A DNA stretch of 39,289 nucleotides from Planctomycetaceae bacterium. Its GTDB lineage: Bacteria > Planctomycetota > Planctomycetia > Planctomycetales > Planctomycetaceae. The notes under the pieces were generated by a model. That model saw only the letters and a program-made list of their open reading frames with translations, had not been told where the DNA came from and did not search any database. The stretch spans positions 1 to 39,289 of the forward strand of contig JAQGHS010000334.1 in NCBI GenBank assembly GCA_028291605.1, written 5' to 3'. The translations under genes were made by a program, and so were the position numbers. Positions 10,501 through 31,429 of the stretch are shown in pieces. How positions within the stretch are numbered: the first letter of the stretch is position 1; the number at the start of each line of letters is the position of its first letter.

Positions 10501-13500
10501 GCTTCGACAATGTTGTCGTCCGTGATGGCGACACTGACGTGTTTGCTGCTCTGACCCGCCAGGAAGGTGATCGACTGCGTGGTGCTCACGTAATCGGTCC
10601 CGCCGCCCGTTGCCGTGCCACCGCCAAATGTCACGTTGATGATGACGTCAGTGTCGAGTGCTTTGTCGGTCGCCAGAGTGAAGACCAGAGTCCCATCTGC
10701 TTCATTCACCGTAACATTGTCGATGGTAAACGTCGCGGTGTCGTTGTCGGTGATATTCACGGTGGCCGGAGTGGCATTCACCGTAATCTGCGGGTCACCA
10801 GCACTGATTCCCGTGAGAGTCACGATGACCGTCTCGGTCGCTTCGACGATGTTGTCGGTCAGGACGGCGACGTTGATATCCACAGAAGTCTGACCGGCGG
10901 GAATCGTCACCGTTCCGGAGAGCGTCGTGTAATCACTGCCGGCAGTTGCCGTTCCCGTGATCGAGTAGCTGACGATCGTGTCGGTACTGCTGACCGCCGA
11001 TTGGGTGACCGTAAACTTGCCGTTGGTCGGCGTGTTGGTTTCCGCACCGTCGGTGATCTTCGCGACCGAAACGGTGGCGGAATCATTATCGGTGATGGTA
11101 CCAGTCCCGACCACACCAGTCACAATACTGGCCGCGGCCACTGGTGCGACTGGAGTGACTGTTCCCAAGGTCACGGTCAACGTCTCGTTCGCTTCGACCA
11201 GCAAATCGCCGGTCACATTGATGGTAATGGTCTGGATCTCATTGGCGTTCCCCGCGAACGTCAACGGACTACTTGTGACCACCGAGTAATCGGCTCCGGT
11301 CGCGGTGCCGTTGGCGACGTTGAAGGCGACCGTAAAGCCACCCGCCACCGCATTCGGTGAGGTAACTGTGAAGGTCATCGTGGTCGCACCGGCATCTCCT
11401 TCGGTGACGATGGGACTGCTGATGGTCAGCGTGTCCGTGTCATCGTTCGTGATCGTCCCCGTACCGACCGCCCCCGTCACGATACTCGCGGCCTGAACCG
11501 GAGCGACTGGAGTGACCGTACCCAAGGTCACTGAGAAGGTTTCATTCCCTTCCACAATCGTATCACCGTTTAGATTCACGGTAATCGTTTGGGTCTCACC
11601 GACAGTCCCGGTGAAGGACAGCGGGCTGCTGGTGACCACGGCAAAATCAGAACCATTTGTAGTGACATTGGCGATATTGAAGGCCACCGTGAATCCACCC
11701 TCGACCGCGTTCGGCGAGGTGACCGTGAAGGTCATCGTTGCCGGTCCGGCGTTCCCCTCAGTCACGACGGGGCTGCTGATCGTCAGCGTATTGGAATCGT
11801 CATTCGTAATCGTGCCTGTGCCCACGGCACCGGTGATAATGCTGCTGGCAGGAACCGGAGCCACCGGAGTAATCGTTCCCAGGGTCACCGACAGGGTCTC
11901 ATTGCCTTCGACGATCGTGTCGCCGTTCACATTGATCGTGATCGTATGCGTTTCACCGGCAGTCCCGGTGAACGTCAGCGGGCTGCTGGTGACGACAGTG
12001 TAGTCGCTGCCGTTGGTGGTCACGTTCGCGACATTGAAGGCCACGGTAAAGCCCCCCGCCACCGCATTCGGCGAAGTCACCGTAAAGGTCATCGTCGTCG
12101 GTCCCGCATTCCCTTCAGTCACCGTTGAATTGGTGATCTGCAAGGTATTGGTGTCGTCGTCGGCGATGTTCACTGTGGCGCTAGTACCACCTCCCAAGGT
12201 GATTTGGGGATCGTGTGCTCCGAATCCGGTCAAGGTGGCAATGACCGTTTCGGTCCCTTCCACAATCGTGTCGTTCAGAACTGGTACGTTAATCACTGCA
12301 CTGAATTGGCCAGCGGGAATCGTGACAGTTCCGCTCAGAGCCAGGTAGTCGTTACCGGCACCTGGCGTGGCTGTCCCGGTGACGGAGTAGGTCAGGACGG
12401 TGTCGGTCGAGCTGATCGCGCTGAGGCTGACCGTGAATTGCCCGTTCACGGGTATCGCACCTTCCGCTCCATCAAACGTTTTGGCGATCGAGACTGTCGC
12501 CGAATCATCGTCGTTGATCGTTCCAACTCCGGTGTCAGTCAGAATCACACCGCGGCCGCCGAGATTCGTGGCCGTGCTCATGACAACGGTAAAGTCTTCA
12601 GAGCCTTCGACGAAAGTGTCGTTGGTAACGGGCACCGTCACCTGGGCATTGAGTTGACCGGCAGTAATGGTGATGTGCTGCGTCGTATTCGTAAAGTCGG
12701 TACCCCCGGTCGCCGATCCATCCTGGAAGTTGATATCGATCACGAAGTCAATATCGAGCGGCCGGTCGAGAGTCAGGTTGAAGACCAAATTTCCGGCAGA
12801 TTCGCTGCCGCTCGCATCGCTGATCGTGACGACCACGGGGGGTTGGGTCAGCGTGACGTCATTGCCGCCCACGCCGCCATGATAGGAGATCGTGAAGCCA
12901 ATCCCATTGATGGTGACCGTCGAACCTTCAGCATGACCTGCGAATTCCCCGACCACCGCGCTGCCGCTGCCGTTGTCGATGAGAGTGATGACCTGACCGA
13001 TCAGGCTGGTAATGGTGCCGGACACGTCCAGGGTCGCATCGGTGACATCCACCGCACCGGTCGTGGCGATCTGATCCGCCTGACTGCCGGCAGTCGGCCC
13101 ATTCACTTGGGCGGTAAACGTCGCCCCGATGCTTACGGTCAATGCGCCAGTATGGAGAGTGGCGGTACCGCTGCCCCCTGGAGAAACATTGCCGCCGCCA
13201 TTTTCAATCGTAACAGCCGCCGCAATCGTTCCGGAGCCAGTCAAGGTGCCGAAGACCAACGTGGGTGAGGTCGTCGAACCATCGACCTGAAGTGTCCCGG
13301 TGTTGACGGAAGTGGTTCCCGTGTAGGTGTCAGTGCCTGTCAACTTCAGGATCGCAGACCCCTGCTTGGTCAGACCACCACCGCTGCCTTGAATGTTTCC
13401 GGCCAACGTGTTGTCAACGTTGCCCAGGCCCAGACTCAACGTATTGGATTGCAGATCAATAATCGCCCCCACGATGCTGTCGAGCCCGGGAACGCGGACA

Positions 13501-16500
13501 TTGCCCCCCAGAACCAGGGTCAGCGGCCTATTGAGATTCGCCGCATCCAAGTAAATTCCGCCAGCCACATTGATGGTTCGAGCGGTACCCGTCAACGCGC
13601 CTTCGGCGAGCAGGTTCACGGCTTCCTGGATCAATCCGGTCGCGGTGAACTGCACCGTGCTGGCATAGACGCTCAGCGACGAGAAGTCACCCTGGAAGCC
13701 GGCCGTCAACAGGTCCGTATCCGTGGCGAAATTGAGCCATGGGGAATAGTCGACCAGCCCGTTCACTTTGGCCGCGACGGCTGCCGGAGTGGTGACACCG
13801 AACGCATTGCCCGAGGCGTCCACCGCAGTTGCCGTGAGATTATTGAGTGCGAAGCCGATGTTCCCGGACAAATTGTTATTGAAGATCGTACCGGAGACCT
13901 GGGATCCGCTCTCTAAGCGAATGCCGTCACCCGTGTTATTCCGAATAAAGTTTTCCGTCACCGAGTCCAGAATGCCACTGTTGTCGATGCCAATGCTGGC
14001 TCCGGAAATATCATTTTGAACTACGGTCGCCGTGGAGCCTGCGGCGATACTGACGCCCACACTGGTTCCAGCGACACCATCAAACGTGTTACCGGTCAGC
14101 GTGGCAGTTCCATTGGACTGAACCAGAACACTGGTCTGCGTATTCGTCGTTGTATTACCGGTCAATTGCACGGGCTGATTGCCGCCGAAGCTGCCACCGG
14201 GCAGCCATTGGAAGCCCACGTTCGCATTCGTGACGGTGTTATCGCTGTAGAGCACCGTCGAGGACGCGCCGGAATGCGACGTGATGATAAACGCCCGCAT
14301 CAAATTCGTGTCGCCGTTGTTACCCGTCTGATTATTAAAGTCGTTGTTGCTGACGGTGATGTCACTCAGACTAGCGTTGCCGTTTTCCCAGATACCTCGG
14401 AACGACGCCTGTTGAGCGTTCAGCGTGCCCGTCACGTTGATGGTGTTGTTGTCGATCAGCAAACCATCAAATGAGGTCCCGCCACCCGAGTTCGACTGCA
14501 TGCCGACAGAACTGGAGAAGTTGGCTCCATCGCTCGCACCCGAGCCATCCATATCAATGATGTTGTTCGAGATCGTCTGGTTGGTTCCGAAGGAGAAGTG
14601 AATGCCGATGTTCTGGTTCACATCCCCTGGTGCAACAGTCGTATTCAAGTCAGCCGGCACCCGGATATGGTTGTTCGTCAGGGTCGTGCCGGCGTACTCA
14701 TCGGGTCCGCCACCGAAGAACATACCGATCGACAAGTCGAAGTCGAAGATCTCCAGATTCGAGATCGTCCAGCCCTGATTATCGGTCCCATCGAAGACGA
14801 ACACACCTTCCAGATTGGCGGCGGCCAGGTCGCCAGGACCTTGAATGCGAGCCGCACCGAGCGAAGTCGTCGTCCAGGTCACATCATTGACATTCGTGGG
14901 AACATACAGGCTGTAGTCATCGAAGCCGCCTGCGACGCCATCGTTACCCAGAGCCCAGCTCGCGGCGGCATTGGCCTCAGACCAGTCAAACGTGCCGTTA
15001 AGAATCACGGTGTCGCCATTGGCAACATTATCCATGATGGTCGCCAGCCGCGTGTAGTCATTGTCAGTCGCGGTCGGAGAAGTGGCTGGAGTGACATAGT
15101 AAACCCCGGCCGTAATCTGAATCAGACCGAGTGTCGCATCATCGTACTGGTCCTGGATCCTGCTTTCGGTGGCGAACTTTTGAGCGGTACTCATGGCAGC
15201 CGGCAGCAAGCCATCAAACGAGACGCCCGTAGCGTCGATCACTTCGTTATCGAGCGCGCCATCTTCCAACGTAATGTAATTGCCGCTTTGACCAGACAGA
15301 GAAAGATCGTTCAGAGTATTGCCGCCGATTGCGGTATCCGGACCGTTAACCAGCAATCCCACTGGACCACCCGTCACAGTGTTTCCGCTGCCGAACGACA
15401 CCTCCACTGGCGTTGCTGAGTAAGCGGAACTGTCGATCGCAATGCCAGCCACCGTGGAGTTAACAATGGCAACGCCGCTGATCGTACTCTGGCTGGCCCC
15501 GCTCGCTTGACCGAACTGAGGATCGGCATTCGTCGCCAAAATCCCATAATTGTTGTGAGTCAACAGGCCGCCGGACACAGCGACATTGCCGGTCGTCGCG
15601 GTGCTCCAGAGCAGAATGCCGTAGATCATGTCGGAGATGTTATTACCCGTGACCGAGGCTCCAACATTGCTGCCCAGTGAGGCGAGTTCAATACCAAAGT
15701 TCGTCGTCGAGGCCGGGAAATCGCCGTCGGTTTCGGCGGTGATCGTATTGTTGGAAATCGTGGCGTCAGTAGCGAGGCTGTACTGCAGGTTGTGGAAAAT
15801 GCCGCGATGATAGGTCGAGATGGTGTTGTGGTCGATCAAGGTTCCGGCGCCTGGCGACGCGAGATAGTAGTTGTCATCCTGCCAGCCGACATTGACCCGG
15901 GTCATGACGTTGTAAGAGACTATACCGTACACGTTCGCCTCAAAGGCCGTCGCCCGGCCCCGACCGCCACCGAAATTGTTTCCGGAGGGCAGATTGTCGA
16001 TCAAGTTGTGGCTGATGTCGTTTCCAGCCGCCGCAGTCACACCATTGACGCCGTCGACCAGCACGCCGTAGCGTTCCAGGTTCTGAATGATGTTGTTCTG
16101 CACATTCAGCGTCGCGTCAAATCCGCCCGGATTGGCATCGAAATCGCCGATACTATTGGCGATACCGGCACCCGTGTTGACTTCCACGCCATTGAGCACT
16201 CGTCCGTTAGTCAGTGCGGCATTGTGGCCATCAATCGTGAAGCCGCTCACCGTGACATCAACGTGCGTCGAGGCCTTGCCCACGCGAACGATCACGCCTG
16301 ATGTTGAAAGTTGAACTGATGTTTCGGTCACACCCGGCAAGATGATGGCTTCGCCGACACGCGTTCCGGTATTGGGATCAATCGCCGCATTGGGGCCGAC
16401 CAGGTGGAGAGATTTGTCGACGATCAGGTTGCCGACAAACGTACCGGACGCAACGTTGATGGTATCACCGGAAGATGCGGCATTAATGGCCGCTTGGATA

Positions 16501-19500
16501 GATTCGTCGGTCAGTCCAGTCCCCGGCGAGGTCACATACACATGCCCAGCGATGACTCGAATCAGACCGTTAGTCCCCGTGTCGGGAGCATGGACGATCT
16601 TGTCTTCAATCAGGAACGGATCGATCAGACCTTCCCAGTTGGTCGACGTGTAGGAGGTCAGGTCGTAAGCCTGGCCGGTACGATTGTCGATAAACAGCGA
16701 GTCGCCGGCGAAGATGTTCCCGGCCCCGATCGCGACCGTTCCGGCGGTGGCATCCAGCCGCAGGTCGGTCCCGTTATCGACGAGGCCGTCAAAGTTGTTC
16801 GCGGTGACGCTACCGTTACCGCCATTGGTGAAACGAATGCCGGTCGTGTTGTCGTAGATGTGATTGTTCGTAATCGTTGCCGCGCCGCCGTCGACATCGA
16901 TACCAATGTTAAATCCATGGATGGAGGCATCGTTGTTCTGAATGATTGCGGTGGCCTGAGATCCAGAAACGAGAATACCGGTGTCAGTCGTGCTCGCAGA
17001 ACCAGTCAGTTCCGTATCGTTCTGAACGGTGACACTCACTGCACCGCCACCAGCCTGCCCCAGCACTTTAACAGCTTGTAGTGTGGAACCCGTAATGCTG
17101 GCACCATCCAGAATCACGTTTGCTGGCGCGCTGGTGAGACCGAAAGTCGTCGTTCCAACTGGTCCCGCAGCTAGATTATTGGTGGCATAAACGCCAACCT
17201 TCGTGCCCGTAATCGAAACCGTACTGCCCAATGTTGGAGTTGTATTCGGGGAAACGGCCCAGACAATGACACCGTAATCTGTGCCAGAAATGGAGACGTT
17301 GGTAATCGTCGGGCCACTGGTTCCGGTGAGCGCAGCAAGCTGGATACCGAAGTTGTTGGCCAAAGCCCCGGTCTCCGCGAAGAACTGATCGTTATCGATC
17401 GTCAACGGAGTTGCGGCGGTCGATTGCAGATTATCCCAAATACCGCCGGCATAAGTGTGAAACTCGTTCCCAGTCACGCTGAAGGTGGCTGGCCCGCCGA
17501 CTGACGTATTATGCACATGCACGCCGAGGTGCACTTTAGTCATCAGGTTATTAGTGATGTCCGCATAGAAACCGGAACGGAGCGTCACGCCATAGCCGAA
17601 ATCGTAGAGTCCAATGTCATGGAACCAGTTACTGTCGATCACGTTGCCTTGTGAAGCTCCGTCACCGCGAACGCCGATGAAGACGTTCGCCAGGATGTTA
17701 TTGCGCACTGCCAATCCACCGGTCACCCCGACGGCTTGCACCGCATAAGACGTATTGGTGTCAGCGCCACTCGTATTGGCCGCCCCTGTGACCAGCGGAT
17801 CATCGCCGTCAATTTGCAAGCCTTGAATCGTCACGTTGTTCGCAGTCACCTTGAACACTGCGTTCTGGAAGGCACTCGTCGCGTCAGAAACGACATGAGC
17901 CTCAGCGCTGCGTGTCCCAGCACCACTGACTCCGGTATTCGGTCCTGAAATCGTCACTGACTTCGCGATCGTCAGGTTTTCCTTGTAAGTCCCCGCAGCG
18001 ACATTCACGGTCCCGCCAGCATCAACGGCGGCAACACCAGCCGTGATGGTATTGAACGCATTGAACCCGATGGCCATCGGGCCGGCGCCAGTGCCGATCC
18101 CGTCCGGATCGCTGAACCGTGCGCCGGCTGGATTCGTGTTGTCATCGACAAAGACCGCGGTCTTCGCACCAATCGCATTGACGCTGTTCAGATCCGATGC
18201 ACCGGTCAACGGACGACTGGTCGCGGTGGCATCCACGGACAGTTCGTTCAATCCGCGCACGCCAGTGAAACCATCCACCGTGTTGTTGATATTCCAGTTG
18301 ATGATAACCGTGATGGCATCGGTCGTGACATTACGCAGGAAGATTCCATCGGCACCGCCAACTCGCGTCAACACATTGTTGGTGAGCGTGAAACGGTCGC
18401 CCGGAGAAGTTCCGCCGCTGGCATCGCGAGCGAAGAAGACGTCATCCACATCGGTGAAGATGTTGCCGTCAACGATCAAGCCGGTCGTCTGCGAGGTCAG
18501 CATCAAGCCGCGATCAAAATTGCGGACACCGTTAATTCCGAAGAATTGATTCTGAGTGATCGAGATATCGGAGCTGTTGTCGTCATTCTGGCCGTTCTCA
18601 CGGACACCCGTGACGATTTCTCCGTTGGCTGTCGCGGCAATCTGGAAAATGTTGCTGTCGATCAGCAGGCCGTCGTATCCGGTGCCGCCAGTCGTGGCAT
18701 TCTGGAATCCATAGGAACGTCCCGCAGTGCCCAGCGTTCCATCCCCCTGGAAGGTCACGGTATTGCCAGTAATGTGCTGATTCGTACCGCCCCACAGATA
18801 GAACGCGATGTTCTGAGAACCTTCGTTGTCACCACCGATCGTGACAATATTGTTCTGAATCTTGGTGCCAGTGAACTGTCCCGGGGCAGCGTCCCAACCC
18901 AAGGTGACTGCCGACTCGAAATCGTCAATGTTCAGCTTCTCCACGGTGAGATTCGCATTCACTGCGACCGTCCCGCCGGCGTTATACAGAAACGATTCAT
19001 AGTTGCCGTCGAGGAGATCACCCTGTCCGATAATGTGTGCCGAAGAATCAGAACTCGTGATGGTCAGGTTGTCGACGCCACCCGGGAGCACGACGCCCCG
19101 AATGTCGCCATCCGAACTGGTGTTGAGACTCGCCAGATAGGCGGCACTAGCGTTCGTCGAGTTCCAGTTATAGAGCCCCTTGATGTCGATCGTCTGCCCT
19201 GTCGCCGCGGCGCCAATCGCATTCTGCAACCGGGTGAAGTCGTTGTCGGCCGCGCTGGTGTCACTCCCAGGAGTGACCGTGACTGTCGTCGGAAGCTGGA
19301 CGCCGGGCAGCAAAGGATTGGTATCGGGGCTGTAGATCAGCCAGGGTGCGAACTTGATGCTAGGCGAGTTCGCTATCGGTTGTCCGAGACCACCGGGATT
19401 GGCGGCCAGCGTGGGACCTGAAACATCTCCCCACCAGTTGCGGCTGGCGTCGATGGCGTCACTACCAGTACTGAGTGCAGTTAGCCCGACCCCCGTGCCG

Positions 19501-20618
19501 TTACCAGTGATCGAGTTGTACTCGATCGTACCGCTGATTGCGGCCTTCTGGGTGCCCCCCGGACCAATGAAAATCCCGTTGCCAGCGCCATGATTGGAAA
19601 TGATATTGTTGGCGATCACAAAACCGGTGACAGCCTGAGAGCCCGCTCCATCACCGATATGAATTCCGAGGCCGGTGCCACCCCCGTCGATTGTATTTCC
19701 AGTAATCGACAGGTTCGTAATTGCCGGACCGCTCACGGAATTTGTTCGAATGTCAACCGTTTGAAATCCAGACACGGTAGTAAGTACGTTGTTGGCAATC
19801 GAAACGTCACCGCGCTCCACCACGATGATCACCGACGCGAACCGTGATCCGGAGAACGTATTTCCGGTGATCTGGGTGTTGGTACCGATGCCCGGACTCA
19901 AGTAGACCCCTTGCCCCTGAATCACACCCTCGGCAGTAAAGGTATTGCCGCTGATTAACAAGTTTGAAGTATCAGGAGCATTGGTCTGGATGCCGGTCGA
20001 TCTCGGGCTGGTCGGGGCGGCAGTCTTGCTACCTACTTCGATCGTGTTATTGCTGATCGTGATGCCCGTGTTTTGGACGACGAGGCCGCCGCTGATACGG
20101 GTTCCCCCCGTGCCGCCGACGCCATTACCATCGAAGACGAAATAGAACCCGTCAATCGTCGTGTTGGCGTCGAGCAGTTTGACGTCACCGTCTGATCCCG
20201 ATGGCGGCGCCCCGACGTATGCGCCCGGTGCCCAGATCGTCGACAGCGGGGTCCGCGAGGAAAACGACGAATCCCAGCCACCGGTAATCGACAGATTGGT
20301 GGTGTTCGCGGAGTCCGCCACCGTCCAGCCGATATCCGCCAACGTGTTGTACGTTCCCGCCGCTACTTGCACGAAATCGTTACCGTCAGAGGCGGCCGCT
20401 GCCGAATCGATCGCCTTCTGGACTGTTCTATAGGGATTTGTAGCTGAACCGTCATTGCTGTCGTCACCAGTCAGTGCCACATGGAATGTCGACAGCAGAC
20501 ACCGGTCTTCCAAGTGTTCCATCAGGCCCGAGGCCAGATTTAACTTCCGGGCCCGGCGAACCGGTCGATTCCAGACACCCAGGGTTTTGAACGCTGAAAG
20601 CCATGATGTGAGCAGCAT
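7599..20618 (-). CDS. Giant secreted multidomain protein (beta-helix, Calx-beta, cadherin-like), 4,339 residues
   Basis: One uninterrupted 13-kb frame from ATG 20618. The N-terminus has a basic, mildly hydrophobic segment and MEHLEDRCLLS at about residues 33-43, matching the LEPR-XLL-type N-terminal motif of planctomycete giant surface proteins. Residues about 44-2,400 are parallel beta-helix modules rich in NNxI/GNT turns. DUF1565-like leads restart near residues 50, 445, 860, 1,370, 1,850 and 2,325 (for example GDTINVASGTF). An autotransporter-associated strand repeat (GGLTKQGSAILKLTG) lies near 2,410. Twelve Calx-beta domains span about 2,590-3,970, most ending ITDNDTAT or similar. Two cadherin-like domains follow (about 3,975-4,195), then a unique C-terminal domain ending VGTRNINVN. 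Calx-beta and cadherin folds usually bind calcium. A role as surface adhesin or matrix protein is inferred; no catalytic site is recognised. It has its own terminator and stands alone. Confidence 0.93.
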   Translation of the reverse strand: MLLTSWLSAFKTLGVWNRPVRRARKLNLASGLMEHLEDRCLLSTFHVALTGDDSNDGSATNPYRTVQKAIDSAAAASDGNDFVQVAAGTYNTLADIGWTVADSANTTNLSITGGWDSSFSSRTPLSTIWAPGAYVGAPPSGSDGDVKLLDANTTIDGFYFVFDGNGVGGTGGTRISGGLVVQNTGITISNNTIEVGSKTAAPTSPRSTGIQTNAPDTSNLLISGNTFTAEGVIQGQGVYLSPGIGTNTQITGNTFSGSRFASVIIVVERGDVSIANNVLTTVSGFQTVDIRTNSVSGPAITNLSITGNTIDGGGTGLGIHIGDGAGSQAVTGFVIANNIISNHGAGNGIFIGPGGTQKAAISGTIEYNSITGNGTGVGLTALSTGSDAIDASRNWWGDVSGPTLAANPGGLGQPIANSPSIKFAPWLIYSPDTNPLLPGVQLPTTVTVTPGSDTSAADNDFTRLQNAIGAAATGQTIDIKGLYNWNSTNASAAYLASLNTSSDGDIRGVVLPGGVDNLTITSSDSSAHIIGQGDLLDGNYESFLYNAGGTVAVNANLTVEKLNIDDFESAVTLGWDAAPGQFTGTKIQNNIVTIGGDNEGSQNIAFYLWGGTNQHITGNTVTFQGDGTLGTAGRSYGFQNATTGGTGYDGLLIDSNIFQIAATANGEIVTGVRENGQNDDNSSDISITQNQFFGINGVRNFDRGLMLTSQTTGLIVDGNIFTDVDDVFFARDASGGTSPGDRFTLTNNVLTRVGGADGIFLRNVTTDAITVIINWNINNTVDGFTGVRGLNELSVDATATSRPLTGASDLNSVNAIGAKTAVFVDDNTNPAGARFSDPDGIGTGAGPMAIGFNAFNTITAGVAAVDAGGTVNVAAGTYKENLTIAKSVTISGPNTGVSGAGTRSAEAHVVSDATSAFQNAVFKVTANNVTIQGLQIDGDDPLVTGAANTSGADTNTSYAVQAVGVTGGLAVRNNILANVFIGVRGDGASQGNVIDSNWFHDIGLYDFGYGVTLRSGFYADITNNLMTKVHLGVHVHNTSVGGPATFSVTGNEFHTYAGGIWDNLQSTAATPLTIDNDQFFAETGALANNFGIQLAALTGTSGPTITNVSISGTDYGVIVWAVSPNTTPTLGSTVSITGTKVGVYATNNLAAGPVGTTTFGLTSAPANVILDGASITGSTLQAVKVLGQAGGGAVSVTVQNDTELTGSASTTDTGILVSGSQATAIIQNNDASIHGFNIGIDVDGGAATITNNHIYDNTTGIRFTNGGNGSVTANNFDGLVDNGTDLRLDATAGTVAIGAGNIFAGDSLFIDNRTGQAYDLTSYTSTNWEGLIDPFLIEDKIVHAPDTGTNGLIRVIAGHVYVTSPGTGLTDESIQAAINAASSGDTINVASGTFVGNLIVDKSLHLVGPNAAIDPNTGTRVGEAIILPGVTETSVQLSTSGVIVRVGKASTHVDVTVSGFTIDGHNAALTNGRVLNGVEVNTGAGIANSIGDFDANPGGFDATLNVQNNIIQNLERYGVLVDGVNGVTAAAGNDISHNLIDNLPSGNNFGGGRGRATAFEANVYGIVSYNVMTRVNVGWQDDNYYLASPGAGTLIDHNTISTYHRGIFHNLQYSLATDATISNNTITAETDGDFPASTTNFGIELASLGSNVGASVTGNNISDMIYGILLWSTATTGNVAVSGGLLTHNNYGILATNADPQFGQASGASQSTISGVAIVNSTVAGIAIDSSAYSATPVEVSFGSGNTVTGGPVGLLVNGPDTAIGGNTLNDLSLSGQSGNYITLEDGALDNEVIDATGVSFDGLLPAAMSTAQKFATESRIQDQYDDATLGLIQITAGVYYVTPATSPTATDNDYTRLATIMDNVANGDTVILNGTFDWSEANAAASWALGNDGVAGGFDDYSLYVPTNVNDVTWTTTSLGAARIQGPGDLAAANLEGVFVFDGTDNQGWTISNLEIFDFDLSIGMFFGGGPDEYAGTTLTNNHIRVPADLNTTVAPGDVNQNIGIHFSFGTNQTISNNIIDMDGSGASDGANFSSSVGMQSNSGGGTSFDGLLIDNNTINVTGTLNAQQASFRGIWENGNASLSDITVSNNDFNNQTGNNGDTNLMRAFIITSHSGASSTVLYSDNTVTNANVGFQWLPGGSFGGNQPVQLTGNTTTNTQTSVLVQSNGTATLTGNTFDGVAGTSVGVSIAAGSTATVVQNDISGASIGIDNSGILDSVTENFIRNNTGDGIRLESGSQVSGTIFNNNLSGNIGFALNNLTATAVDASGNAFGVTTPAAVAAKVNGLVDYSPWLNFATDTDLLTAGFQGDFSSLSVYASTVQFTATGLIQEAVNLLAEGALTGTARTINVAGGIYLDAANLNRPLTLVLGGNVRVPGLDSIVGAIIDLQSNTLSLGLGNVDNTLAGNIQGSGGGLTKQGSAILKLTGTDTYTGTTSVNTGTLQVDGSTTSPTLVFGTLTGSGTIAAAVTIENGGGNVSPGGSGTATLHTGALTVSIGATFTAQVNGPTAGSQADQIATTGAVDVTDATLDVSGTITSLIGQVITLIDNGSGSAVVGEFAGHAEGSTVTINGIGFTISYHGGVGGNDVTLTQPPVVVTISDASGSESAGNLVFNLTLDRPLDIDFVIDINFQDGSATGGTDFTNTTQHITITAGQLNAQVTVPVTNDTFVEGSEDFTVVMSTATNLGGRGVILTDTGVGTINDDDSATVSIAKTFDGAEGAIPVNGQFTVSLSAISSTDTVLTYSVTGTATPGAGNDYLALSGTVTIPAGQFSAVINVPVLNDTIVEGTETVIATLTGFGAHDPQITLGGGTSATVNIADDDTNTLQITNSTVTEGNAGPTTMTFTVTSPNAVAGGFTVAFNVANVTTNGSDYTVVTSSPLTFTGTAGETHTITINVNGDTIVEGNETLSVTLGTITPVAPVPASSIITGAVGTGTITNDDSNTLTISSPVVTEGNAGPATMTFTVTSPNAVEGGFTVAFNIANVTTNGSDFAVVTSSPLSFTGTVGETQTITVNLNGDTIVEGNETFSVTLGTVTPVAPVQAASIVTGAVGTGTITNDDTDTLTISSPIVTEGDAGATTMTFTVTSPNAVAGGFTVAFNVANGTATGADYSVVTSSPLTFAGNANEIQTITINVTGDLLVEANETLTVTLGTVTPVAPVAAASIVTGVVGTGTITDNDSATVSVAKITDGAETNTPTNGKFTVTQSAVSSTDTIVSYSITGTATAGSDYTTLSGTVTIPAGQTSVDINVAVLTDNIVEATETVIVTLTGISAGDPQITVNATPATVNITDNDTATFTIDNVTVNEADGTLVFTLATDKALDTDVIINVTFGGGTATGGGTDYVSTTQSITFLAGQSSKHVSVAITDDNIVEATETFGATLSTSAVLGGRSVNLSDTGTGTITDNDTATFSINNVTVGEGAGTLVFDLTTDKALDIDVTITVTFTDVTATGGGTDYASVTQQITFLAGQISKQVTVAINNDSLVEGTETFTAALSSTTPLGGRLINVADTGTGTITDDDSATVTIAKITDGAETNTPTNGKFRVTQSAVSSIDTIVTYSITGTATAGIDYTTLTGTVTIPAGQTTADIDVSVLTDNVVEATETVIVTLTGISSGDPQITANATPATVNITDNDTATFTINDVTVNEADGTLVFNLTTDKALDTDVTINVTFGSGTATGGGTDYASTTQSITFLAGQISKPVSVAITNDNIVEGTETFVASLSTATPLNGRSVNLTDTGTGTITDNDTASFTINNVTVGEGDGTLVFDLVTDKALDIDVTITVTFTDISATGGGTDYASTTQQITFLAGQFSKQVSVAINDDNLLEGTETFTAAISSTTPLGGRVINVTDTGTGTITDNDTATVSIAKVTDGVESNTPTNGKFTVTLSAPSSTDTVVNYTIAGTATPGTDYTTLSGSVTIPAGQTTADIDVTVHNDTDVEDLETVIATLNGFGAHDADITLGSNLTATVNITDDDQLAITSGPSASVPENTLTSTVVLNVDADPVAGHTLTYSLSGPDAARFNINPVTGEITFVNSPNFEVPADADANNVYNVTVSVTTDITPTRTTTQDLTITVTPVNDVIPVFNNASPTFTVTENATAGTIVGVVSATDGDLPAQSLTYSIVSGNASGAFAINPTTGQISVINSTPLNFEVTPAFTLQVRVTDSGSPTALTADAMVEIHLIDVAEEPTITLPAAPATYSLHSAPVVVAPSATFDLNGITNPNFSSAKLTVSIIAGRDKKDRLAIIKKGADANDIHLKGKKVLAGSVQIGTVAGGKGSKTPDLVVTLNGNATQATVERLLERVTFQAKAGTGITRTVGMKLTNVSGVDTNVGTRNINVN
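8700..12850 (-). repeat. Array of 12 Calx-beta coding repeats in the giant gene
   Basis: In protein order the units end near nucleotides 12510, 12157, 11800, 11443, 11090, 10740, 10403, 10063, 9722, 9385, 9043 and 8700. Most close with an acidic linker such as ITDND or INDDD. Units fall into types by sequence. Units 2, 6, 9 and 12 share SATVSIAK-like starts and TGTATAGxDYTTL. Units 3-5 share TSPNAVAGGFTVAFN and are a tandem of about 357 nt. Units 7 and 10, and units 8 and 11, form two further types. Confidence 0.85.
9043..11090 (-). repeat. Duplicated three-domain block (about 1.02 kb x 2) within the Calx-beta array
   Basis: Units 6-7-8 (about 10063-11090) and 9-10-11 (about 9043-10063) have the same A-B-C order and are near copies. 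For instance, DGAETNTPTNGKF, NEADGTLVF and GRxINVxDTGTGTITD recur in the same places, at a spacing of about 1,018-1,020 nt. Unit 12 is a further A-type domain, so the block looks as if a third copy began. This points to duplication of a whole three-domain block and not to single-domain slippage. Confidence 0.8.
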
Positions 20619-23745: not shown

Positions 23746-26034
23746 ATGACGTTTTCTCCGGGATCTCGATTACTGGCGATCTGCCTCGGTTGTCTGCTGA
23801 GCATTGAGGTTTCGACGGCGGTTGCGCAAGACACACATTGGTCATTTCGTCCAATTTTCCGGTCGACGGTTCCCAGTCCAATCAGAGCCACCTGGATCCG
23901 CAATCCGGCAGATGCATTCATCCTTTCCCGCCTGGAAAAAGAGAACCTCGCTCCCTCCGCGGAGGCCCCTCGGGCGACGCTAATTCGCCGCGTGACACTC
24001 GATCTGATCGGACTTCCACCGACTGCTGCGGAATTCGAGGCGTTTCTGGCGGATGACGGCGCGGATGCCTACGAGCGCCTGGTCGACCGGTTGCTGGCAT
24101 CGCCCCACTATGGCGAACGTTGGGCCCGGGTCTGGCTTGATCTCTGCCACTATGGCGATACTGACGGGCACCTGACCGATCAGTTGCGGCCGGTTGCCTG
24201 GCGTTATCGTGATTGGGTGATGCGGGCCATGAACGCCAATCTGCCGTTCGACGACTTCACCGTGGCGCAGTTGGCTGGTGATCTGTCGGGCGATTCGCCG
24301 TACAGAGGTAGCGAACTCGACCCCGTGCTGGGTACCGGTTTCTTGAGGCAGACGCTCAGCAATCGAGAGGGTGGGGCGGATCTCGAAGAGTATCGCGTCG
24401 AGCAGATCGTCGATCGGACCTCGCTGGTTGGCATGATCTGGATGGGGCTCACGGTGGGCTGTGCCCGCTGTCACGACCATAAGTACGATCCGCTCAGCCA
24501 TGAGGACTTTTTTAAGCTCTACGCGTTCTTCGATCGTGCGGACGAAGTCAATATCGATGCCCCGTTGCCGCAGGAACGCGATGGCTATCGACGAGTGCGT
24601 CCGGAGTATGAACAGCGGCGGCAGACCTTGATTCGCGAAGCCGGTGATGGATTCAACTCGCTACAAAAACTCTGGGAAGAAAAGCTGCTGCATGCGGCGG
24701 CGCATCCCGGGGAAGATCATGTCTGGGACCGTCAATGGGAAGTGCTCGGACTGGTCTGGGGCGGTGGTCTGGGTGAGGGACAGCTGGAGGGCGTTGAAAT
24801 CGTCAAGCTGCCACGTGACCGCCGGACGGCGCGTCAGCGAGACGACCTGTTCGACTACTTTCTGCAACATAGTGCAGTGACTGATCCGAAGAAGTTTCAA
24901 GAACTCAAGCTGAACGAACTGCAGACGAAGCTGGTGGCTCTCAAGAAAGAACTTCCCCAGGCGGCAGCTACACGGGCTCCCGTCATGCAGGCCGCATTGA
25001 CTCCGCGAAAAACGTTCATTCACGAGCGAGGCGATTTTCGCAGTCCGGGCCCTGATGTCGTCGCCGGCACGCCAGACTGGTTGCCGGTCAAGCTGACTGT
25101 CGCTGCGGCGGCTTCTGACGGGATACCCGCGAAGTCCACTGAGCCGACCCGGTTGGATCTCGCGCGGTGGATTGTTTCGCGAGACAATCCCCTTACAGCG
25201 CGTGTCGTCGTCAATCGCTACTGGCAGGAATTCTTCGGGCGGGGCATCGTGGCGACGTCGGACAATTTGGGTGTTCGAGGGGCACCACCCTCGCACCCGG
25301 AATTGCTCGACTGGCTGGCGGAGGAATTCATCCGCTCAAGCTGGGATGTGAAGTCCATGCACCGGCTGATTGTCACCTCGGCGACCTACCGGCAGTCGTC
25401 ATTGCCGCGGCCCGAACTCGCCACAGTCGATCCCGGAAATGTGCTCCTGGCACGGCAATCGAGTCTCCGGATTCCCGCTGAAGCCGTTCGTGATTCGGGA
25501 CTGATCGCCAGCGGATTGCTGACTCGCACGCTGGGTGGCCCCAGCGTCTTCCCGCAGCAGAACGAGCGGGTCACGATGGAAGCGTTCGGCAGCAATTCGT
25601 GGCCCACCAGCACGGGGAGCGACAAGTATCGTCGCGGCCTCTACACCTTCATGCAGCGCACGTCACCCTTCGCTCAATCCATCACCTTCGACGCCCCCAG
25701 CCCCGCGCGAGCCTGCACCCGTCGCGATCGATCGAATACGCCTTTGCAGGCTCTGACGCTCCTCAATGATCCAGTCTTTTTTGAGATGGCAGGGGCGTTG
25801 GCTCAGCGGATTCTGCGTGAGGGCGGGACCGCTGATCGGGAACGACTGAGGTTCGCCGTGCAGGCGGCCCTGGCGCGGCCGGCGACGGATCGCGAACTGA
25901 AACTCCTCGAAAAATATCTTGAGCACGAACGCTTATTGATCAACGAAAAACAAGAGAAACCGACCGAGGTCTGGTGCTGGACGAAGCTGTCCAGCGTCGT
26001 ATTGAATCTGCATGAATTTGTGACGCGTGATTGA
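23746..26034 (+). CDS. DUF1549/DUF1553 planctomycete cytochrome-type protein
   Basis: 762 residues from ATG 23746, with a modest GAGG about 10 nt upstream. The signal peptide is about residues 1-27 (ends AVAQ). DUF1549 covers about 50-255 with the conserved [32 protein letters not shown] and [11 protein letters not shown] (haem-type CxxCH at 239-243). A variable charged middle region (about 280-430) is followed by DUF1553 at about 460-745, including [20 protein letters not shown] and [16 protein letters not shown]. Unlike the protein at 1012, it has no Ig-like domain and no extra N-terminal cysteine motif. The next gene, DUF1501, is the classic partner of this family in planctomycetes. The pair is exported and its biochemical role is unknown. 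Confidence 0.92.
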
Positions 26035-26051
26035 TTTGTCCAGCCGCTGAT

Positions 26052-26126
26052 CCGTAGGACGGGCACTCCTGCCCGTTTGCATTTGTGGCTCAAACGCGGA
26101 GACGGGCAAGAGTGCCCGTCCTACAG
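26052..26126. repeat. Divergent palindromic element, copy D
   Basis: Inverted arms (26052-26077 and 26101-26126) carry GTAGGACGGGCACTCCTGCC and its near complement around a 23-nt loop. The layout and the GTAGGA-GGCA-CCTGCC skeleton match copies A-C, but several positions differ, so it is a related subfamily. It lies between the DUF1549/DUF1553 and DUF1501 genes. Confidence 0.7.
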
Positions 26127-26194
26127 CATACGTTTGTCTGCTCACGCAATTAGTGAACTTTGTGATGCACGATGACCGATCCAGGGAGCCAACG

Positions 26195-27631
26195 ATGAAT
26201 CCTCTCGAACACCTCCAGTCGATCCAGCGGCGGTGCTTTCTGCAGCAGACGGCGTGCGGGCTGGGCTCGGTCGCGCTGGCAAATTTGTTGTCCGGGGCGG
26301 TGAGCGCGGCCGATGAGACTCCCTCGCTGGCCCCCAAGCCGCCTCACTTTCCCGCGCGGGCCAAGAATGTCATCTTTCTCTTTATGGCCGGGGCGCCCAG
26401 TCAACTTGATCTGTTCGACCCTAAACCTGAAATGCAGCGGTTGCACGGACAGCCGGTGCCGGAATCTTTCTTGAAGGGACTGACCGATTCCCTGATTAAG
26501 GGGAGTGCCCGGGTCATGGCGTCCCCCCGCAAGTTTGCCAAGCATGGCCAATGCGGGATGGACTTTTCCGATTACCTGCCGCGTCTCGCCACGTGTGCGG
26601 ACGATTTGTGTATGCTCCGCACTCTACACACTGACACCGCCAATCACGACCCGGCTCAGCTCTTGATGCAGTGCGGCGTGCCTCGTTTCGGATTGCCTTC
26701 GATGGGTTCGTGGGTGACCTATGGCTTGGGGAGCGAATCGCAGGAGCTGCCCGGTTTCATCGTGCTGTTGTCGAACAACGGACCGGGTGACATTGCCGGG
26801 ACCGCCCTGTGGGATAATGCCTTTCTGCCGACCGTCAATCGCGGGGTGACTTTCCGCAGCGAGGGTGATCCCATCCTGCATCTGGCCAGTCCGCCGGGTT
26901 TCACCCGCGACGAACAACGCGAGCGGCTGGCCGTCATCAATGATCTGAATCGAGCTCGCCTGGAAACCCAGCCTGATCCCGAGATCGCATCGCGAATCGC
27001 TGCCTACGAACTGGCCTTTCGGATGCAGGTCTCGGCCCCCGACCTGGTCAGTTTGTCGAGCGAGACCAAGGAAACTCTGGAATCCTACGGCATCGGAGAC
27101 CCCAAGCAGGATACATTTGCCCGGAATTGTCTCCTCGCCCGGCGCATGGTCGAACGGGGCGTGCGTTTTGTGCAACTCTATCACTACACGTGGGACGATC
27201 ATTCCAATTTGAATGAGAAGCTGAAGGTGAATTGCGACAAGACCGATCGCCCGGCCGCGGCCTTGATTCACGATCTCAAACAGCGCGGATTGCTCGATGA
27301 TACGCTGGTGATCTGGGGGGGCGAGTTTGGCCGGACTCCGATGAATGAAGTCCGGCGCGGGAACACGCCGGGCAAGGAGGGCCGTGATCATCACGCGGCG
27401 GCGTTCACGATGCTCATGGCGGGCGGCGGCATTCGGGGCGGGCAGATCATAGGTGCCACGGATGAGCTGGGCTATTCCCCCACGCAGGACCCGATCCACG
27501 TGAACGATCTGCAGGCGACCATCTTGCACGCCCTCGGGCTGGACCACGAGCGTCTGACCTTCCGACATCAAGGCCGAGACCACCGGCTGACAGACGTTGC
27601 TGGTGAGGTGATTTCCAAGGTGTTTGCGTAA
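26195..27631 (+). CDS. DUF1501 domain protein (sulfatase/alkaline phosphatase-like fold), exported
   Basis: 478 residues from ATG 26195, chosen over GTG 26153 because AGGGAG lies 6 nt upstream. The N-terminus QRRCFLQQTACGLGSVALANLL has a twin-arginine-like signal. The DUF1501 body follows, with NVIFLFMAGAPSQLDLFDPKP, LRTLHTDTANHDPAQLLMQCG, LPGFIVLLSN, WDDHSNLNE and DTLVIWGGEFGRTPMNE. The family shares the alkaline phosphatase/sulfatase superfamily fold, but the formylglycine-type C-x-P-S-R motif of true sulfatases is absent, so hydrolytic activity is unproven. In planctomycetes these genes typically follow DUF1549/DUF1553 genes, as here, and the two probably act together. The gap of 160 nt is partly filled by the palindromic element. 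Confidence 0.92.
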   Translation: MNPLEHLQSIQRRCFLQQTACGLGSVALANLLSGAVSAADETPSLAPKPPHFPARAKNVIFLFMAGAPSQLDLFDPKPEMQRLHGQPVPESFLKGLTDSLIKGSARVMASPRKFAKHGQCGMDFSDYLPRLATCADDLCMLRTLHTDTANHDPAQLLMQCGVPRFGLPSMGSWVTYGLGSESQELPGFIVLLSNNGPGDIAGTALWDNAFLPTVNRGVTFRSEGDPILHLASPPGFTRDEQRERLAVINDLNRARLETQPDPEIASRIAAYELAFRMQVSAPDLVSLSSETKETLESYGIGDPKQDTFARNCLLARRMVERGVRFVQLYHYTWDDHSNLNEKLKVNCDKTDRPAAALIHDLKQRGLLDDTLVIWGGEFGRTPMNEVRRGNTPGKEGRDHHAAAFTMLMAGGGIRGGQIIGATDELGYSPTQDPIHVNDLQATILHALGLDHERLTFRHQGRDHRLTDVAGEVISKVFA

Positions 27632-27763
27632 GAAGTGCTGGCCCACGTTTTGGCAAACGTGGCGACGTCACGCTCGTCGACAACTCTGGTTGTGGTTATC
27701 ATGGGAACTCCGACGCCGGGGCCTCCTGCCTCGGCCGCACATCCCCAGCTAAGGATGACTACC

Positions 27764-28627
27764 ATGAAGCGCATCGTCTGTCTGTTCGCTGCCCTCGCTC
27801 TGTTGTCTGAAGTTCAGGCCCAGGAAGTCAAACGCGACATCCCCTACGCCAAGCCGGCTCTGGAGCGGCAGGTGCTGGATGTCTATTCGCCGAAGGATGC
27901 GAAAGGGTTGCCGGTGGTCTTCTGGATTCACGGGGGTGGCTGGCAGGCGGGAGACAAATCTGACGTTCAACTCAAGCCGAAGTTTTTTGTCGACAAGGGC
28001 TTCGTGTTTGTTTCCACGAACTATCGGCTGCTGCCCAAGGTGGAGATGGAGACGATCTTTCAAGACATCGCGAAATCGATTCACTGGGTGCACGACCATA
28101 TTGCAGAATACGGTGGCGATCCTCAGCGGATCATCGTAGGTGGGCATTCCGCGGGGGCTCAATTGGCCGCGCTGATTTGTGTTGACGATCGCTATCTGAA
28201 GGCCGAAGGCTTGTCACTGGCGATCATTAAGGGATGTGTTCCGGTCGACGGAGACACCTACGACGTGCCAGCCATCATCGAAGTCGCCGAGACCCGCTGG
28301 CGAACCCACGGACTGCCCCCCTCGAAGTTTGGTCATCGCGAAAAGTTCGGTAACAGTCCCGCGAAGCATAAGGACTTTTCGGCGGTGACGCACATTGCCA
28401 AGGGCAAGGGGATTTCGCCATTCTTGATCATCCACGTGGCCGGCCATCCCGACACGACGGCACAAGCCGTGCGTCTCGCCAATTCCCTAAAGGAAGCGGG
28501 AGTGCCGGCGACGTTGTACAGCGGCAAAGAGACGACGCATAGCAAGATCAACAACGATCTGGGTGTCCCCGAGGATCCGGGAACAAAAGCCTTGGCTGAG
28601 TTCGTCGAAAAATCGCTAAAGAAGTGA
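27764..28627 (+). CDS. Secreted alpha/beta hydrolase (carboxylesterase-like)
   Basis: 287 residues from ATG 27764, with AAGGA 8 nt upstream. ATG 27755 overlaps that site, and the longer frame from 27635 adds low-quality sequence before the signal peptide. The signal is residues 1-20 (ends VQAQ). The oxyanion motif HGGGW is at 56-60. The nucleophile Ser129 lies in GGHSAGA, the likely acid is Asp230 in GHPDTT, and the catalytic His259 is in ETTHSK. Sequence such as [20 protein letters not shown] is typical of the esterase/lipase-like hydrolases related to feruloyl or acetyl esterases. It should cleave an ester outside the cytoplasm, possibly an acyl group on a carbohydrate. Last of the five-gene plus-strand run; the next gene is convergent. 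Confidence 0.9.
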
Positions 28628-29627: not shown

Positions 29628-31223
29628 TCACGGTGCCTGGGGGCGGTCTCGTTCGTGATCGACGATGCAGAAGAAGCCGAATGGTTCTGTGGATTCATTG
29701 CGGAGTTGATGCACGTGCATGGGGGGGACGTAGGCCACATCCATCGCCTTCAGTTGCACGATCTCGTCTCCCACTGCCAGCGTACCCTGGCCACGCACGC
29801 AAATGACCGCATGCGTGTGGGCATGTTTTTCCAGGCTGCTGAAGCCGCCCGGAGCGATCGCAAAATAGCGTAGATCGAAATCAGTTTGCTCGCCGAATGG
29901 GCCGATCAGTTCATGCCGCACGACGTCACGGAAGGGGAGACTCTGGCAGGCCTTATAGGCGGCGATCGGTCGTCCCTCCCACGCGCCGGTGGCGGGGCTA
30001 TGTGACAGATGCGTGAGGACCACCGGTGAGGCATTAGTACTCGCGGCGGCGGACCGTGGAACTTCGCACGCGGAGGCGAATCCGGTATCTGGTTCAACTA
30101 GACGGGTACTGAACTGCGATTCGATCCGCTTCAAGAATTCACGCGTGCTGTTTTTCAGGCTGCCCGAGTGTGACAGCAAGGCTCCACCGATGAGGAAGAT
30201 CGCGTCCGCTCCATACTGACGAGACATCTGGGGCAAATTATCAATCCGCATGCCGCCGGCAGGGGCAGGCCAGGCCGCTGATAATTGCCCCAATGGCGTC
30301 CGCAGGTGGCGCGTGATACTTTGGCAATCGGCCTGACTGAATGAGAAGCGTCCGCCGTAGTTTGGGAAGATCGAGATATCGGCCCCGATCAAGCGGAAGA
30401 GTTTGCCCAGCAACAGGCCCGTTTCGATTCCCTGCTTGGGTTCAACGCAATAGCCGCCTGCAAATGTCGGGTGAGCCATGACCAACGTGGAATATCGTTC
30501 CGCCAGCGAGCGAATCACATCCAACCCGGCGATGAATGGCGAGACCAAGACGCCTCGAATGCCCAGCGACAACGCATACTTCAGGTAGCGCTCAAGCTGC
30601 TCGACCGGCACCATCAAGTTCGGCAGATAGAGAGTGTTGCGACCAGTCTGGGCATTGGCTCGACAAACACCTTCGTGACAGCGGGCGATACGTTCCTGGA
30701 AGGCGCCAAAAGTTGCGTCGTGGAGATTGTGGTCGTCCTTCACCAGATCGCCGCCGCCAAGGGCAAACTCGTGCGCTAATGCGGCTAATTCGGGGATGCT
30801 TAATCCCACGGGTTTCAAGGCTGTGGCCAACAACGGGCGACCATGCACTCCCAGCAGACGACGCAGGCCTTCGACGCCAAATTGCGGGCCGCGGAAATTC
30901 CGCAGCAGTTCCTCCGGGAAATCGACGTCCGAGAGGCTGACATTCTTCTGCAACGAGGTATTCCCGAACAGCAGATTCAGCAGTTGCGGCAATTGCCCGC
31001 CGGCAAGCAGATGGTCGTAGCTGATGCGGGCCTCAAACCCGTCTGGCACACCGGGGATGGGCTGAATCGAGTCAATCCGTCCGACCCAGCGGCGAATCCG
31101 ATCGTCAGCCTCGGCGAGTGCGGGGGGGACCTCGACGGTTTGTTCGTACGCGATATTCTGGCAGACCTGTTCGACCGCATTCGGGGCGCAGCGTATGCGA
31201 TAAACGGCGGTGATCGGGGTCAT
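29628..31223 (-). CDS. RuBisCO-like protein (form IV) fused to a C-terminal cupin
   Basis: 531 residues from ATG 31223, where family similarity begins (ITAVYRIR). TTG 31298 or GTG 31289 would add a Ser/Thr/Ala-rich leader. Residues about 1-375 are RuBisCO large-subunit-like. Lys137 in ALKPVGLS aligns with active-site Lys175, but the next lysine is Val. VKDDH at 161-165 keeps the carbamylated lysine and the two aspartates, but Glu204 becomes His. Loop 6 is FPNYGGRF (286-293), without the catalytic lysine, and GGALLSHSG replaces the GGG phosphate loop. It is therefore not a carboxylase. Residues about 412-531 form a cupin with KHAHTHAV (466-473) and PPMHVHQ (500-506) as metal ligands. In R. rubrum a RuBisCO-like isomerase and a separate cupin convert methylthioribulose-1-phosphate to deoxyxylulose-5-phosphate and methanethiol. 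One fused enzyme for that route is my inference. Confidence 0.88.
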   Translation of the reverse strand: MTPITAVYRIRCAPNAVEQVCQNIAYEQTVEVPPALAEADDRIRRWVGRIDSIQPIPGVPDGFEARISYDHLLAGGQLPQLLNLLFGNTSLQKNVSLSDVDFPEELLRNFRGPQFGVEGLRRLLGVHGRPLLATALKPVGLSIPELAALAHEFALGGGDLVKDDHNLHDATFGAFQERIARCHEGVCRANAQTGRNTLYLPNLMVPVEQLERYLKYALSLGIRGVLVSPFIAGLDVIRSLAERYSTLVMAHPTFAGGYCVEPKQGIETGLLLGKLFRLIGADISIFPNYGGRFSFSQADCQSITRHLRTPLGQLSAAWPAPAGGMRIDNLPQMSRQYGADAIFLIGGALLSHSGSLKNSTREFLKRIESQFSTRLVEPDTGFASACEVPRSAAASTNASPVVLTHLSHSPATGAWEGRPIAAYKACQSLPFRDVVRHELIGPFGEQTDFDLRYFAIAPGGFSSLEKHAHTHAVICVRGQGTLAVGDEIVQLKAMDVAYVPPMHVHQLRNESTEPFGFFCIVDHERDRPQAP

Positions 31224-31285
31224 TTCGGGAGTGACCGAAGCGGTAGCCTCGGCGGAGTCGGCAGTGTCGGTGGCCAAAGTGGGGT

Positions 31286-31429
31286 TCACGGCATCCAAAC
31301 CGGCAGGGTGATAGTTTTCAATCCGCAGTCGGCGACCGTACGCACTTCAGTGAGTCCAGTCAGGCCGCAAATCTCCTGCAGCGTCAGGTTGATATTTTCG
31401 AACCGTACGAATTGTCGCAAGTCATCCAC
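31286..31429 (-). CDS. Possible 47-residue ORF upstream of the RuBisCO-like gene
   Basis: A minus-strand frame from GTG 31429 to TGA 31286 encodes a short protein starting VDDLRQFVRFENINL and ending LPVWMP. AGG lies 7 nt upstream of the GTG. Its stop overlaps the alternative GTG start (31289) of the RuBisCO-like gene in a GTGA, the usual layout for translational coupling. I recognise no family. It could be a leader peptide, a small subunit or chance; the overlap only matters if the downstream gene really starts at 31289. Confidence 0.3.
   Translation of the reverse strand: MDDLRQFVRFENINLTLQEICGLTGLTEVRTVADCGLKTITLPVWMP

Follow-up and report, generated by a model that had tools for sequence, protein, structure and literature searches.

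The gene studied here, on the minus strand of a 39,289-nucleotide planctomycete DNA stretch (the window), encodes a form IV RuBisCO-like protein (RLP) fused to a cupin, and homology suggests that the product is probably a bifunctional enzyme of the methylthioadenosine (MTA)-isoprenoid shunt. The shunt was established in purple bacteria, where it uses two separate enzymes. In the proposed scheme, MtnA would make 5-methylthioribulose-1-phosphate (MTRu-1P), the substrate for the fusion, which the N-terminal DeepYkr-type RLP would convert to 1-methylthioxylulose-5-phosphate (MTXu-5P). The tethered cupin would then pass the methylthio group on to a thiol, with 1-deoxyxylulose-5-phosphate (DXP) and, after reduction, methanethiol as the products. 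The fusion would thereby stand in for the MtnB/W(C)/X/D branch of methionine salvage, which depends on oxygen. For the fusion itself we infer both activities, the substrate and any gain from the two domains being joined. We favour this reading because of the clades of the RLP and cupin domains, the presence of mtnA with mtnD undetected, and purifying selection on both domains, and also because related RLPs lie in mtnK-mtnA operons on rhizobial plasmids and the RLP and cupin genes lie side by side in Terrarubrum. Points against it are that no mtnP or mtnK scored over its cut-off, that the neighbouring genes show no evident tie to methionine salvage, that mtnA is nearly universal among relatives, and that RLP and cupin are often unpaired. 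The initial annotation had proposed a one-chain enzyme for both steps; the two clades and mtnA agree with it, and the mtnP supply and the channelling that it invoked were not borne out.

The fusion is a single open reading frame without an internal stop (29628–31298, minus strand). With residues counted from the ATG at 31223, it consists of the RLP domain (residues 1–372, 30108–31223; Pfam PF00016), a linker of about 42 residues (373–414, 29982–30107) and a C-terminal cupin (415–531, 29631–29981; PF07883), all on the minus strand. Pfam matches were RuBisCO_large at 9.6e-24 and Cupin_2 at 3.7e-12, and the motifs named in the initial annotation (VKDDH, KPVG, FPNYGGRF, HAHTH and HVH) were all found. 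The frame given there also stood, although its 5' end, the ATG at 31223 (531 residues), may be 25 codons too short. An in-frame TTG at 31298 (556 residues) appears to be the better start, since two congeners share both this codon and the residues that follow (LDAVNP...), and the ATG is not kept in one of them (L036). The fusion is not an assembly artefact, because the same two-domain single reading frame occurs in 18 other genomes. Relative to the nearest congener, dN/dS was 0.05 overall, about 0.04 in the RLP domain and the cupin alike, and 0.16 across the linker. Purifying selection on both domains is strong. A scan for promoters and terminators gave no signal beyond chance.

The best solved relative of the RLP domain is 3qfw, a 'Rubisco-like protein from Rhodopseudomonas palustris' (E 5e-77, 37–40% identity). 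In VIA-align the comparison with 3qfw gave Z 44.5 and an rmsd of 1.9 Å over 347 aligned residues, a Z score with which MtnW structures tie. R. palustris has two RLPs, RLP1 (DeepYkr, RPA2169) and RLP2 (Photo), and the MTRu-1P 1,3-isomerase activity of RLP1 has been demonstrated in vivo and in vitro (PMC5893883). Because 2qyg is titled rlp2, 3qfw should be RLP1 (RPA2169). In an IQ-TREE phylogeny, in which 3qfw served as the reference for the isomerase group and R. rubrum Rru_A1998 was not among the rows, a branch supported at 96/87 set MtnW, 4nas-type and Photo proteins apart from the fusions, stand-alone planctomycete RLPs, 3qfw and rhizobial RLPs. The root of this tree is unsure, since the sequences chosen as true RuBisCO outgroups (L013 and L018) lack typical RuBisCO motifs, as inspected in L013. 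Active-site residues follow the same division. The position of the MtnW catalytic Lys (K98) is Asn in the fusion, as in 3qfw (FGN versus FGK). The carbamylated-Lys/metal site of the superfamily reads KDDH in the fusion (residues 162–165, 30729–30740, minus strand) and in 3qfw versus KDDE in MtnW and Photo proteins, with KDDQ in L037 only, and GGRF (in FPNYGGRF) replaces the MtnW/Photo motifs in both the fusion and 3qfw. Homology therefore places the RLP domain in the DeepYkr type, the MTRu-1P 1,3-isomerase group, with the corresponding catalysis predicted, and outside the other functional clades that the initial annotation had asked about.

These data bear directly on a different assignment, in which the RLP domain would catalyze another reaction of the superfamily, as a DK-MTP-1P enolase, an apionate-type decarboxylase or a true RuBisCO, and the cupin would be unrelated to sulfur salvage. 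MtnW and OiaX models do score above noise, but the values are far under the curated NCBIfam cut-offs: 224 bits against 409 and 179 against 514 for MtnW, the 2,3-diketo-5-methylthiopentyl-1-P enolase, and 66.7 against 700 for OiaX, the apionate-pathway decarboxylase. MtnW was also rejected for its Lys in place of Asn and KDDE in place of KDDH. True RuBisCO was rejected on scores of 145 bits against 497 (form III) and 153 against 438 (subfamily), and on the His at a metal-site position where RuBisCO has Glu. The models for MtnW, OiaX and RuBisCO are also far under their cut-offs with 3qfw itself. Tree position and active-site residues match those of 3qfw, unlike those of MtnW or the Photo proteins, and mtnD, and hence the oxygen-dependent route in which an enolase would act, was not detected. 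We regard this assignment as very improbable.

Among solved cupins, 3ibm, 3kgz and 3jzv match the C-terminal domain at E values of 1e-23 to 1e-25, and the next match is TM1459 at 3e-6. The deposited name of 3jzv is Rru_A2000, which is the MTXu-5P sulfurylase of R. rubrum (PMC4958253). Fusion cupins were sister to Rru_A2000/3kgz/3ibm at 95/88 in the cupin tree, with other planctomycete cupins outside and deep branches among those other cupins poorly resolved. The likely metal ligands, an ExHxHxH motif (residues 465–471) and H505, have counterparts in 3jzv (ERHxHxH and WHQ), and E465, H467, H469, H471 and H505 are invariant in the 15 fusions compared. The domain thus falls in the MTXu-5P methylsulfurylase group and not in an unrelated cupin family, and thiol-dependent release of DXP is its predicted reaction. 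It is conceivable that the RLP is an MTRu-1P isomerase but that the cupin has diverged to act on another C1-substituted xylulose-5-phosphate, or mainly to bind or stabilize the product. Such divergence would fit the position of the fusion cupins on a branch of their own (98/97), beside and not inside the Rru_A2000 group, and the restriction of a linker motif, SACE, to the fusions. We nevertheless judge it unlikely, as the metal site and the C-terminal signature GF-C-V-RD-P are kept between the fusions and Rru_A2000, and dN/dS is equally low in the cupin and the RLP domain.

The AlphaFold2 model had a pLDDT of 82, with residues 378–403 below 50 and predicted to be disordered, so nothing supports direct channelling; the earlier claim that the fusion channels a reactive intermediate is left without structural support. 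Matches to the RLP domain took up the list from a structure search aimed at domain contacts. Linkers of the fusions span 36–70 residues and are variable except for SACE or a close variant, found in 13 of 18 (alignment A1, column 498) and here part of S-A-C-E-V (residues 384–388, with Cys386; 30060–30074, minus strand). Of these 18 sequences, those of RS_6_11, G326 and the three Nitrospirota lack the motif, and neither the listed C-termini of stand-alone RLPs nor the listed N-termini of stand-alone cupins have it. SACE might close over the RLP active site as a latch, as the RuBisCO tail does, or serve as a thiol. A bolder and quite doubtful idea is that Cys386 swings into the cupin site as a built-in thiol, where it would accept the methylthio group of MTXu-5P in a mixed disulfide on the protein and stand in for glutathione; if true, this would make the fusion a swinging-arm enzyme, not two tethered ones. 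The thiol of the methylsulfurylase step is expected to vary among organisms (PMC6302742).

Compatible with the shunt assignment, and with about an even chance of being correct, is the view that adjacent genes were joined passively, which left both activities intact and brought no channelling or functional gain. The disorder and variable length of the linker agree with it, as do the persistence of separate RLPs and cupins in the same phylum and the gene order in Terrarubrum, where RLP and cupin are neighbors in the fusion order, followed by cysE. Retention of the fusion over wide divergence and across phyla argues against a purely passive event, as does the conserved motif in the linker.

The fusion was found in 19 genomes (13 Planctomycetota; three Nitrospirota, among them Candidatus Magnetobacterium casense; one metagenome-assembled genome (MAG) labelled Gammaproteobacteria; and two MAGs without a phylum), with two of the 19 sequences partial because they end at contig edges. 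Identity of the protein studied here to the 18 others is mostly 42–94%. An even sample of 392 planctomycete genomes contained the fusion in seven, a stand-alone RLP of the same type in about 20 and a stand-alone cupin of the same type in about nine; one genome of this sample (G115) has both stand-alone genes, on separate contigs. In many Planctomycetota, then, just one of the two was detected, be it the RLP or the cupin, which indicates that the two steps are not always coupled. Stand-alone RLPs of the fusion group, with no cupin at the threshold used, were also seen in a small-genome planctomycete family (f23, e.g. L076, L082, L108 and L109), at two loci near a GAPDH-type gene. The best RLP tree requires three label changes, and an AU test did not reject a single fusion clade (p 0.44); either one origin or several would be consistent with this, and the fusion occurs across phyla. 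Viral contigs gave no relative, and the plasmid matches listed contained separate genes only and no fusion.

In the genome of the window mtnA is intact (446 bits, cut-off 279), and it was found in 14 of the 16 fusion genomes tested (8/8 from the family and 6/8 more distant), both negatives being small MAGs. Its presence discriminates little, however, since 52 of 59 relatives have mtnA over the cut-off, with or without the fusion. The acireductone dioxygenase gene mtnD scored over its cut-off in none of the 19 fusion genomes. Neither route considered for the supply of MTR-1P, MtnP or MtnN plus MtnK, was found: mtnP had no match over the cut-off among the 59 relatives, including complete ones that carry the fusion, and mtnK (MTR kinase) had none in 16 fusion genomes. 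The best mtnP match in the genome of the window, which is 87% complete, is a purine nucleoside phosphorylase (PNP) at 75 bits against a cut-off of 275, and the second PF01048 matches there resemble, by eye, an AMP nucleosidase and a different nucleoside phosphorylase. The initial annotation had suggested looking for mtnA or mtnP together with absence of the remaining salvage genes; mtnA is present and mtnD is undetected as anticipated, but with no mtnP or mtnK over the cut-off the supply of MTR-1P is only half shown. The PNPs of fusion genomes have VTD (VTDLC) at the position of Asn243 of the 6-oxopurine enzymes in the ten cases checked (L121, L123–L130 and L132), and an Asp at this position favors adenine nucleosides. 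For this reason the planctomycete PNP may be the source of MTR-1P. In the genome G441 the PNP gene lies directly upstream of an mtnA-type gene. Most fusion genomes have dxs. It was under the cut-off in G027, which is 99% complete and has the fusion, and in G026; because the latter lacks the fusion, the link between fusion and dxs is weak. G027 (L008, L096 and L138) is a candidate for a shunt that feeds isoprenoid synthesis.

Operon context was rejected as support, since no methionine-salvage genes neighbor the fusion in the window or at the related loci examined. At the Nitrospirota fusion loci, genes for a peptidyl-prolyl isomerase and for a fumarase-type subunit are the conserved neighbors. 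The window itself holds a plus-strand PSCyt2/PSD1 (DUF1549/1553) and DUF1501 pair typical of planctomycetes, followed by an alpha/beta hydrolase (23746–28627), a second PSCyt2/PSD1 gene (1012–3201), and a minus-strand gene (7599–20618) for a giant surface- or adhesin-like protein of 4339 residues, the scanned part of which is rich in Calx-beta and cadherin domains. Rhizobial and Devosiaceae plasmids (L113, L114, L115 and L116) carry DeepYkr-like RLPs in a different setting, an operon of mtnK, mtnA, the N-terminal half of a DXS-like transketolase, the C-terminal half of a transketolase and the RLP. This operon, which adjoins a sugar ABC transporter, reads like one for methylthioribose uptake and breakdown, with the split transketolase in the place of the cupin; we know of no description of such a methylthioribose operon.

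No description of an RLP-cupin fusion was found in the open-access literature searched, the founding shunt papers being outside its scope, in keeping with the initial annotation, which knew of no such natural fusion. Automatic annotation may well list it. The conserved one-chain version puts a likely shunt in Planctomycetota and magnetotactic Nitrospirota, in which, to our knowledge, it has not been described before, and it offers a natural construct for testing channelling of MTXu-5P. One genome, G369, encodes a nucleoside phosphorylase identical to PDB 4m1e; should it be Planctopirus limnophila, as this suggests, the fusion gene occurs in a species that is cultured and open to genetics.

The closest known systems are the separate enzymes of purple bacteria. 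R. rubrum Rru_A1998 and R. palustris RLP1 (RPA2169) are the counterparts of the RLP domain, which shares with 3qfw its tree group, KDDH, the Asn and FPNYGGRF, but they are stand-alone proteins with the cupin encoded separately. R. rubrum Rru_A2000 (3jzv) and R. palustris RPA2170, the closest PDB group to the cupin, share its metal-ligand pattern and C-terminal signature. Methylsulfurylases of this type are stand-alone and glutathione-mediated (PMC5893883), whereas the cupins of the fusions branch separately and follow a linker in which SACE is common. Methionine-salvage steps are also fused in one chain in Tetrahymena MtnBD and MtnAK (PMC3698126, PMC6302742), but these are enzymes of the universal oxygen-dependent pathway and contain neither an RLP nor a DXP-forming cupin. 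MtnW (YkrW) and the Photo-type RLPs share the RuBisCO-like fold and superfamily and differ in KDDE, in the base, in clade and in having no cupin. The fusion gives a known pathway a new architecture and no new chemistry.
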